Shown here one piece after another: positions 3,297 to 5,725 of a DNA stretch of 22,453 nucleotides. The translations under genes were made by a program, and so were the position numbers. Each line of letters starts with the position of its first letter. The stretch's first letter is position 1. Under the pieces are notes generated by a model. It was not told where the DNA came from. It ran no database searches and saw only the letters and a list, made by a program, of their open reading frames with translations. Source of the DNA: a virus; IMG/VR virus record IMGVR_UViG_3300020459_000074, positions 1 through 22,453 of that record. The stretch is one strand, 5' to 3'.

Positions 3297-3437
3297 CTAT
3301 AATGCAATAATAATCATACCAATAATAAGACCTTTGGTAAATGCTAACCAAAGCATTTGGTAGTCGGATAGATTAAATTTATCTTGCCACTTTTTAGCAA
3401 GGTCTCTATCCCATTCTAGAAATCGTTTAATTAACAA
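3297..3437 (-). CDS. Small membrane-tail protein with apparent TTG start (46 aa)
   Basis: An open frame of 46 codons lies in the apparent gap between the DUF6321-like gene and the 62-residue membrane gene. It has no ATG near its start. Two TTG codons occur at 3443 and 3437, and GAGG sits 8 bases before the second, which I chose. The product reads IKRFLEWDRDLAKKWQDKF, then SDYQMLWLAFTKGL and a hydrophobic end IIGMIIIAL: an amphipathic charged N-terminus with a C-terminal membrane anchor. It resembles small uncharacterised proteins of related phages as I remember them (unverified). It overlaps the upstream gene by 7 bases and ends 2 bases before the next ATG. A GATAAATA late motif is 20 bases upstream. 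Confidence 0.6.
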   Translation of the reverse strand: MLIKRFLEWDRDLAKKWQDKFNLSDYQMLWLAFTKGLIIGMIIIAL

Positions 3438-3718
3438 TTCCAAGCCCTCAAAGATTTATTTATCCTGCTATCAGGGTCACTAGCAGTTTTTTTAGAAGTC
3501 AACTTCTTCTTCATACCCTTCATCCTAGCACAAAAACTAGCACGTCGTGGGTTACCAACTTTTTTACTAGGTGCTTTTAAATCGCTACCTGGGTTAGCAC
3601 GCTCATAAGACTTGCGACCCTTTTCATTGAGTCCGCCTTCCTTATTTTTTCCTGCTTTCTTTGTCCATGCTTCTTCAGCAATGAATTGATTGAAAGACTT
3701 TATCCTGCTGCTTGACAT
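3431..3718 (-). CDS. DUF6321-like basic protein with capsid-targeting-like N-terminus (95 aa)
   Basis: A 95-residue, very basic protein. Residues 14-70 carry the pattern I associate with DUF6321: WTKKAGKNKEGGLNEKGRKS, then ANPGSDLKAPSKKVGNPRR and SFCARMKGMKKKL. The N-terminal extension MSSSRIKSFNQFIAEEAW closely resembles the capsid-targeting peptide of T4 internal proteins (IPIII begins MKTYQEFIAEA), which the prohead protease gp21 removes after the Glu of I-A-E. This suggests an internal head protein packaged with DNA and possibly injected. Its ATG lies 19 bases inside the upstream Cys/His gene. Strong positive charge fits nucleic-acid binding; the mature function is unknown. Confidence 0.75.
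   Translation of the reverse strand: MSSSRIKSFNQFIAEEAWTKKAGKNKEGGLNEKGRKSYERANPGSDLKAPSKKVGNPRRASFCARMKGMKKKLTSKKTASDPDSRINKSLRAWNC
3457..3464 (-). promoter_or_regulatory. Late promoter motif GATAAATA (T4 type)
   Basis: GATAAATA on the minus strand matches T4 late TATAAATA at seven of eight positions. It lies in the 3' end of the DUF6321-like gene, 20 bases upstream of the proposed TTG start at 3437, and could start a late transcript for the small-gene run. Confidence 0.45.
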
Positions 3719-3834
3719 GTTGGATTCTTAGGACAGTTTTCTTCGTGTTTTTCTATCCATGTATATGGTCTCCAATGCCCTTGCGGTGCAGTGATTCCAC
3801 AGTAACGACAGACTTTACTACGCTCTTCAGCCAT
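3700..3834 (-). CDS. Small Cys/His (zinc-ribbon-like) protein (44 aa)
   Basis: The ATG at 3834 is preferred because GGAG lies nine bases upstream and the protein then begins cleanly as MAEERSKVCRYCGITAPQGH; a longer in-frame start at 3927 would overlap the upstream gene by over 100 bases. The arrangement C-x2-C, a Trp/Tyr-rich middle (HWRPYTWIEKHEENC), then KNPTC gives four Cys and two His in 44 residues, consistent with binding one zinc ion. Such mini zinc fingers often bind nucleic acid or act as protein adaptors; which applies here is unknown. It overlaps the DUF3008 gene by 8 bases and the DUF6321-like gene by 19 bases. Confidence 0.7.
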   Translation of the reverse strand: MAEERSKVCRYCGITAPQGHWRPYTWIEKHEENCPKNPTCQAAG

Positions 3835-5725
3835 AATGATACGCTCCTTTTTTGGATTTGTTAGGTAGTTTACCACTCCTGACTTTATCGCCAGAAGTTT
3901 GACCCATACCAGATGGGTTAGACCCACCTTTAGATTTACCTACGTTTATTGACTTCCCAGGTTTCTTGCTCTCGGTATCATGCAATCTTGCGGGTTTCTT
4001 TTTATCCTTAGTGATTACAGATTCTTGTCCGTGCTTTCTACCTAGACGACGCATGGTTTTTCCAAAACGACGTTTTGACATTTTATCAGGTTTTGATGTC
4101 TGATAGGATACTTCTGTGCCAGTTTCACCACTGTCATACTTGTATTTGCCAACACCTTTTTTGTAACCAATTCCTTTCTTTTTAAGGTCTTTTTCTAGCC
4201 CCTTTCTAGAGGCTTGGTTCTTTTTTTCGTCGCCACCTCTATCTGCAGATATATTACCTGTAACAGAAGTTTTAGACTTATGTAACATTCTAGCAGTATT
4301 ATTGCCTTCTGTAAAGTAGTTCTTAAAACTTACGTGCTCATACTTGTTTCTACCAGATGGTGAAGGTTGTGTGCTATCAAAATGAGGATTGTTTTTAGCA
4401 GCATCAGACTGTGCTTCTCTCTTCTTAGTCAGCATCTTTGCTTTCTTATCAAGATACTTCTTCATAGCACCTGATGCTTTTCCTGACCCTTTGTATAGAC
4501 CATAAGAAGTGCCTTCGTTTGCAGGCAAGAAACCAACATACTTATTCTGTTGCTTGTCTCTCATTATCTTAGCAGCAATAGCACCCGCATCTCTACCAGT
4601 TGTTTTCTTTGCTTTTACTTTAGCTGCTCTCTTTATCATACCCATCACACCTTCTGATGTGAGTTTGTCAGTTGCTTTCAAGACACCATCCTGTCTTTTC
4701 TTTGTCTTATCATAGTCACCTTTTACAGCACTTGTTGCCATGTCTGTAGATGCTTTCTTAATGTAGCTACCTAAAGTTTTCTTACTTACTTCTTTGATAA
4801 CTTCTTCTTTTTTATATGCAGGCACTTTAGCACCTTTCACACCACGACGTGCTTTGTGCTCTTCTCTACGCTTGTCAATAGTTTTACCTCTCTTACCCTC
4901 AGGGTCAAACATTCCAGGATCATCATGCCCAGGTCCGCTTCTCCTATAGTTTCTGATAGATGCTTTACCATAATCACTACGTCCTTTATCTACCTTTGCT
5001 TCATCAACTCCTTGCATCTGTCCTCTTCTATTCTTTGCTGCAACCTGTAGAGGAAGTCCACCAGTGTTATCTTTCTTTTTCACATGGACTGCTTTATGTT
5101 GCTCATATGCCCCTTCTACATTAAGTGTCTTAGGATAGTCTTTCTCACCTGGCCTTGCTTTTCTCTCGCCACGTTTTCTCTTTGCATGGATGTTATCCCA
5201 AAGACCTTTCTTCTTTTCTTCAAGGGTTTCTTCTTTTGTTACCCCTGCCTTTGCTCTATTTTTCTCGGCAAAACTTTTGATAATCATTTTCATTTTAGCT
5301 CGTTTACCATAAGGGTTAGCACCTTCGCCCATTATTTTACCACCATCTTTTCTGATTCTGTCCTTGACTAACTCAAGTGCAGACTTACCTTTTGCTGCTT
5401 TCTGTGCAGCAGTTTGCCCTTTCATCTTTTTATCAGACCTAGGCATAGTCGTAGCATCCTTCTTTTTGGGAGAAGAAATATCAATTCCAGCTACTGCCAT
5501 CTTGTCTTTGTAATGGTCGTAACCTTCTTCGTTTACAGATTCTTTAGACATTTTTTTCTCAGGTAAACCTTTATGTTTAGTTGATGCAAACTTCTTTGCA
5601 TCTTTCATTTTTATGCTGGAAGCAACTCTGGCAACCTCAGGTGAGGCAGCTTTCGCTTGACCCTCCTTTTGAGCTTGTCGAACCATCCCGAAGAATCTTT
5701 GTTGTTTTCTCGAGACTGCGGGCAT
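3827..5725 (-). CDS. Large lysine-rich modular protein with N-terminal DUF3008-like domain (632 aa)
   Basis: A 632-residue, extremely basic, low-complexity protein built from separable modules. Residues 1-58 (start MPAVSRKQQRFFGMVRQAQK) match the DUF3008 pattern. Residues 67-134 hold a YDHYKDKMAVAG segment, and 173-199 hold KKGLWDNIHAKRKRGERKA. Residues 312-356 hold VSKKTLGSYIKKAS with KATDKL. Residues 463-473 (HVSFKNYFTEG) resemble an internal capsid-targeting peptide. Residues 487-575, with NQASRKGLEKDL, a G-x-Y strand and GRKHGQESVI, resemble DUF3293. Junctions between modules repeatedly carry a hydrophobic-x-Glu or similar Glu site (for example VNE66, LEE170, VDE242, IKE312, FTE473), as expected for gp21-type prohead protease cleavage. 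The start is supported by GGAGG 10 bases upstream. It probably is a head-internal protein; the enzymatic role, if any, is unknown. Confidence 0.8.
   Translation of the reverse strand: MPAVSRKQQRFFGMVRQAQKEGQAKAASPEVARVASSIKMKDAKKFASTKHKGLPEKKMSKESVNEEGYDHYKDKMAVAGIDISSPKKKDATTMPRSDKKMKGQTAAQKAAKGKSALELVKDRIRKDGGKIMGEGANPYGKRAKMKMIIKSFAEKNRAKAGVTKEETLEEKKKGLWDNIHAKRKRGERKARPGEKDYPKTLNVEGAYEQHKAVHVKKKDNTGGLPLQVAAKNRRGQMQGVDEAKVDKGRSDYGKASIRNYRRSGPGHDDPGMFDPEGKRGKTIDKRREEHKARRGVKGAKVPAYKKEEVIKEVSKKTLGSYIKKASTDMATSAVKGDYDKTKKRQDGVLKATDKLTSEGVMGMIKRAAKVKAKKTTGRDAGAIAAKIMRDKQQNKYVGFLPANEGTSYGLYKGSGKASGAMKKYLDKKAKMLTKKREAQSDAAKNNPHFDSTQPSPSGRNKYEHVSFKNYFTEGNNTARMLHKSKTSVTGNISADRGGDEKKNQASRKGLEKDLKKKGIGYKKGVGKYKYDSGETGTEVSYQTSKPDKMSKRRFGKTMRRLGRKHGQESVITKDKKKPARLHDTESKKPGKSINVGKSKGGSNPSGMGQTSGDKVRSGKLPNKSKKGAYHYG

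Follow-up and report, generated by a model that had tools for sequence, protein, structure and literature searches.

The DUF6321 protein encoded in a 22,453-nucleotide stretch of viral DNA (IMG/VR record IMGVR_UViG_3300020459_000074, here the window) is probably a basic protein housed inside the head of a T4-like cyanophage, whose N-terminal leader acts as a capsid-targeting sequence and is cut by a gp21-type protease, with the adjacent 632-aa protein as cargo of the same system. Taken as a whole, the data are best read as pointing to a capsid-targeting and prohead-protease system of the T4 type that cyanophages apply to polyprotein cargo as well. This is the first role proposed for DUF6321, for which no paper was found in the literature searched, and it connects phages that are among the most abundant in the ocean with the injected anti-restriction proteins of T4. 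The window, taken from a virus record, carries genes for the T4-type neck proteins gp13, gp14 and gp15, a gp16-like small terminase and a bilin reductase; it is a fragment that ends before the gp21 region and holds neither gp21 nor gp23, and its relatives encode gp21. The features discussed are listed in Table 1, in which, as in the text, an arrow marks a cut, predicted for all cyanophage proteins.

Table 1. Positions in the window of the DUF6321 protein, its 632-aa neighbour and their predicted sites and modules.
Feature	Position	Strand	Basis
DUF6321 protein, 95 aa, pI 10.5	3431..3718	-	ORF list; PF19846 E 3.4e-24
Leader IKSFNQFIAE (residues 6-15), probable T4-type capsid-targeting sequence; cut predicted after E15	3674..3703	-	T4 ipII/ipIII register; determinants 4, 7, 8, 10; relatives MKTFNQFIAE↓EAW
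Predicted mature DUF6321, 80 aa + stop, 23 K/R vs 7 D/E	3431..3673	-	Composition; AF2 helices, mean pLDDT 73
632-aa modular protein, probable cargo, pI 10.2	3827..5725	-	PHROG matches to separate segments
N-terminal DUF3008-like module, about residues 1-65	5531..5725	-	phrog_10538 match; S-SCSM1 gp279 (PF11450, tagged virion protein)
EGYD module, about residues 67-150, after SVNE↓	5276..5527	-	Standalone relative MKTFKEFISE↓EGYD (L217)
NIHAKR module, about residues 171-236, after ETLEE↓	5018..5215	-	PHROG matches; junction analysis
Internal junction HVSFKNYFTE (residues 464-473), resembling a capsid-targeting sequence; cut predicted before GNNTARM	4307..4336	-	36 distinct relatives
Putative SAM lyase module, residues 474-632	3830..4306	-	PF23780 E 7.5e-7; Foldseek best 6znb E 5e-3

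The Pfam family PF19846 (DUF6321) covers residues 23-93 of the 95-aa ORF with 85.7 bits against a gathering cutoff of 28.5, and ahead of it the protein begins MSSSR-IKSFNQFIAE↓EAW (full start MSSSRIKSFNQFIAEEAWTKKAGKNKEGG...). The initial annotation had likened this N-terminus to that of T4 IPIII; the register and the determinant positions do match, but the string in question (IKSFNQFIAEEAW, residues 6-18) starts at residue 6, the annotated start placing MSSSR ahead of it. Near relatives (L086-L088) open directly at the motif, MKTFNQFIAE↓EAW, and the window ORF has five residues more. When aligned with the IPII and IPIII leaders taken from the sequence of the T4 record (MKTYQEFIAE↓A), the window leader has F, F, I and E at positions 4, 7, 8 and 10; for T4, a review of the head attributes targeting mainly to residues 4 and 7, and processing to residues 8 and 10, as established by mutagenesis (PMC9026906). 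The mature N-terminus had been expected at residue 17. The T4 register, with its E at position 10, instead predicts a cut after E15 and a mature protein starting at residue 16, with a cut after E16 as a possible alternative. The AF2 model of DUF6321 consists of helices (pTM 0.47) and gave no useful PDB match by fold or sequence. The start of the gene is overlapped by an ORF of 45 aa (window 3700-3837, minus strand) whose Cys and His residues are arranged like those of a zinc finger (CRYCG...HEENC).

With the core of the motif defined as [FYW]xx[FYW][ILMVF]xE, its occurrence in the first 12 positions of the shuffled DUF6321 protein has P = 0.00025. Among the window's basic proteins only the DUF6321 ORF and the 632-aa neighbour match it; a third match, in a 1514-aa structural protein, is no more than chance would allow, with 0.65 matches expected over the whole window. 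The exact T4 register stands at the N-terminus of 93 of 6656 first-ATG ORFs, where shuffling yields 2.6 (at most 6) and the motif read in reverse yields 0. The count of 93 is inflated because the loci were gathered around the families concerned; the family specificity is not inflated, and the 93 sit nearly all in few families, T4 IPII and IPIII included. A DNA-level leader pattern run over 19 records caught real starts together with random matches and hence served for spotting only.

DUF6321 is present in 472 phage records, where in most cases it ends a longer protein (100 to 900 aa), and a scan of bacterial genomes placed it in 55 contigs, mostly metagenome bins. All DUF6321 ORFs were taken from their loci under one rule, the first in-frame ATG. 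Standalone forms in T4-type contigs start MKSFNEFITE↓DWQKK, MKTFSEYLNE↓DW, MKTFNQFIAE↓EAW, MKNYKEFKELAE↓AAW and similar, and the leader is found in 34/36 of them, contigs with only gp17 excluded; elsewhere about 48/49 standalone forms are leaderless (MAKTPAWQRK, MAKSPAWTRK, MGIMSSPAWTRK). Terminase gp17 was dropped as a T4 marker, since it turned up in some leaderless non-T4 contigs as well, and the four contigs with gp17 as their sole T4-type marker were moved out of the T4 class. A match to gp21 is present in P-SSM2, T4 and S-SCSM1 and, in the same comparison, in none of four named leaderless phages (HTVC104P, Lederberg EXVC029P, P-SCSP1k and MinM2). Homologues without the N-terminal extension, named in the initial annotation as evidence that would count against capsid targeting, do exist, but only in phages with no T4-type head genes in view, a distribution that agrees with the hypothesis and does not refute it.

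Where DUF6321 is fused to other segments, a Glu lies no more than 6 residues upstream of the domain in 115/115 proteins (background 26%), and the commonest form of the site is xE↓GAAW. The exact T4 spacing is kept in 12/28 unique DUF6321 leaders; the other 16 depart from it, most of them with LxE two or more residues later. A single branch separates the leaderless rows from all others in a tree built from 92 DUF6321 domains, and the association of leader with T4-type phages therefore counts as one event for DUF6321. On the T4-type side standalone and fused forms are intermixed; well-supported branches require no fewer than 5 changes between them, each of which preserves the Glu site. A small family encoded beside DUF6321 (S-SCSM1 gp030 and relatives, MKTFKQFMSE↓SVNISGDFNGNLYV...; L166 44215-44535, plus strand) has a near-perfect leader and no Pfam match.

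The string SFKNYFTEG in the 632-aa neighbour had been proposed as related to the leader, and this holds: it is the same kind of site, placed at a domain junction (core residues 467-473), with SFKNYFTE (residues 466-473) abutting the last module. In the ten residues that precede this module in 36 distinct relatives, S or T occurs at position 3 in 32, F or Y at position 4 in 32, F, Y or W at position 7 in 32, a hydrophobic residue (L/I/F/M) at position 8 in 36, and E at position 10 in 36, the last being the column by which they were aligned; the general form is S/T-F-x-x-F-L-x-E. In proteins that begin with this module, the site serves as the leader, as in P-SSM2 (MRTFQEFLQLCE↓GG) and S-CREM2 gp6 (MKDFDSFLEE). 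The module is identified as a putative SAM lyase (PF23780), an anti-restriction enzyme family, by its Pfam match (29.6 bits against a gathering cutoff of 28; S-CREM2 gp6 matches with E 2.3e-19) and by a weak fold match. The latter, to the phage SAM lyase 6znb (TM 0.36-0.43), is weak because the model of the module is itself weak (mean pLDDT 59), and its profile gave chance matches only against PDB sequences. T3-type SAM lyases strip the cofactor from several restriction systems, and T3 makes its SAM-degrading enzyme early after entry. The module resembles the phage SAM lyases (PF23780; Svi3-3, T3 SAMase) in its Pfam match and best fold match; unlike them, it would belong to a virion-type polyprotein in which a targeting site precedes it.

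The NIHAKR module behaves in every respect as DUF6321 does, being leaderless outside T4-like phages (MAKKGLYANIHAKRK), preceded by a leader within them (MKDFKEFKELAE↓KKRGLWDNIHAKRK) and following a Glu site inside long proteins (...LEE↓GKKGLWDNIHAKRK). As far as sequence can indicate, these internal sites suggest packaged polyproteins; no account of such a variant, or of this cyanophage system, was found in the openly accessible literature searched. For the VSKK module of the 632-aa protein, junction analysis yielded no usable contexts. Long cargo proteins also contain another motif at junctions, [FY]S[ND]WRx[DE]LxE, seen in 39 distinct contexts (L001 23914-24729, L166 and other loci); here W replaces the residue at position 4, while the L and E of L-x-E fall on positions 8 and 10.

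Several cyanophage virions have been analysed by proteomics. Mass spectrometry of CsCl-purified S-SCSM1 particles identified 45 proteins (PMC9602691), and about 47 genes are tagged as virion protein in the S-SCSM1 record, with the terminases and nearly all replication genes untagged. Consistent with PMC9602691, gp029, which ends in DUF6321, bears the tag 'virion protein'; gp030 has a perfect leader yet lacks the tag. A leader scan of the whole S-SCSM1 genome returned two annotated genes, gp030 and the NMN adenylyltransferase (MKSFLQFLKEAA). This cytidylyltransferase/NMNAT (leader MKSFLQFLKE) has been found repeatedly in virions of several independent cyanophages, and its leader is present in 40/40 loci examined and in the distant P-RSM6 and S-N03, which were unseen checks. 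A universal leader on the cytidylyltransferase is rejected, those of S-CAM1, Cr30 and RaK2 having none; in S-CAM1 the enzyme is split (L437 683-1518) into a catalytic part without leader and a separate C-terminal part that starts MKDFKKLREQ. In relatives of S-SM1 the DUF6321 protein (T4-GC 119) is annotated 'similar to S-SM1 protein', a note otherwise found on gp13, 14, 15, 18-21, 23 and 3 and absent from gp16, 17 and 22; set beside the 41-protein S-SM1 virion proteome (PMC3037559), it is an indirect sign of virion presence.

In S-CREM2 the virion note agrees with the published table for the named proteins (PMC10665884), and the virion tag is therefore taken as detection by mass spectrometry. 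The core lies within the first 30 residues of 5/52 detected and 1/167 undetected proteins (Fisher P 0.003), and the exact register in 4 detected and 0 undetected. The five detected carriers are the SAM hydrolase, Cas9-like nuclease, APH-like kinase, gp136 and cytidylyltransferase. Taken with the conservation at T4's experimental determinants and the association with T4-type phages, the virion proteomics of relatives supports the capsid-targeting reading of the initial annotation, and packaging of tagged cyanophage proteins is well supported.

We propose that, as the prohead assembles, IKSFNQFIAE would bind the scaffolding core and so carry the DUF6321 protein into it, and that a gp21-type protease would then cut after E15, leaving the 80-residue basic protein in the head. 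A cut at the last junction of the 632-aa protein would free the SAM lyase, which could shield incoming DNA from restriction. Glu-ending sites also stand before other modules, and internal copies of the sequence would release the modules of packaged polyproteins. As in T4 gp21 processing of gp23 and others, the cyanophage gp23 propeptides end in F or L, then L-x-E↓A (FLSE↓AP in P-SSM2, FLAE↓AP in S-SCSM1, LLTE↓AP in S-CREM2; FLTE↓AE in T4), the cyanophage cuts being predicted. Each of the tagged internal proteins of T4 is injected and acts by blocking one type IV restriction enzyme (PMC12373910); on that precedent, a SAM lyase packaged in the head would be their natural counterpart. We infer the cleavage, module release, ejection with the DNA and function of DUF6321, which, being small and strongly basic, may have a DNA-condensing role, a role in the host, or the two combined.

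A serious alternative, to which we give somewhat less than an even chance, is that DUF6321, targeted and matured through its leader, has a purely structural role in the head, DNA-condensing or as part of the core, and stays in the capsid without acting as an injected effector. Its small size, very basic character, recurrence across the phage records and location among the gp13-gp17 head and neck genes would all suit such a role, as would the leaderless relatives that adjoin capsid and tail genes in some non-T4 phages; yet the same tag is borne by enzymes with no obvious structural role (SAM lyase, NMNAT, kinase and Cas9-like nuclease), and its T4 bearers are injected anti-restriction factors. 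That DUF6321 and the other tagged proteins are contaminants of virion preparations, the motif marking another late-expressed complex, is improbable: contamination could not be excluded by the S-CREM2 authors for the enzymes they found (PMC10665884), but the tag predicts detection within that phage and the cytidylyltransferase recurs in independent virions. It is no more credible that the leader is a mere N-terminal helix or spacer, the Glu-rich junctions flexible acidic linkers and the T4 likeness convergence without packaging, since the K- and E-rich composition, the helix modelled by AF2 and the many junctions missing the full motif are outweighed by the fixed register at T4 determinant positions with far lower chance rates, by the leaderless state of both NIHAKR and DUF6321 outside T4-like phages, and by virion proteomics.

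The T4-type targeting and processing system favoured here shares with T4 IPI, IPII and IPIII the leader chemistry and register (MKTYQEFIAE vs IKSFNQFIAE), basic cargo, Glu at the predicted cut, T4-type head genes and, likely, anti-restriction cargo; unlike in T4, there is no sequence likeness beyond the leader, and the site recurs within multi-module proteins and on enzymes. Its proposed cargo would also be like the ejection proteins of giant phages (phiKZ, SPN3US) and DarA/DarB of P1, which are head-packed, several of them processed after Glu by a prohead protease. We see an even chance that T4-like cyanophages have a general addressed-cargo system, in which one short sequence, N-terminal or repeated at module junctions, would load and release a reshuffled array made up of DUF6321, NIHAKR, SAM lyase, NMN adenylyltransferase, kinase and Cas9-like nuclease, the cargo entering the cyanobacterium with the DNA to disarm restriction and reset metabolism before phage gene expression. 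Because the tag is common to the DUF6321 protein, its neighbour's junction and enzymes found in related virions, ocean-phage cargo should be predictable from sequence, and an address tag readable in this way could be applied to any T4-like genome, where virion proteomics alone left cargo versus contamination open.

Two further proteins bear similar strings. The virion-detected S-CREM2 gp12 (L372 7704-10313, minus strand), annotated as a Cas9-like nuclease, has RFASFMAE↓A at residues 18-25 and is possibly a Cas9-like protein packaged in a phage head. T4 gp61.1 (54 aa; L432 967-1131, minus strand) starts MKTFKEF, identical to IPI, and may be an unrecognised internal protein.
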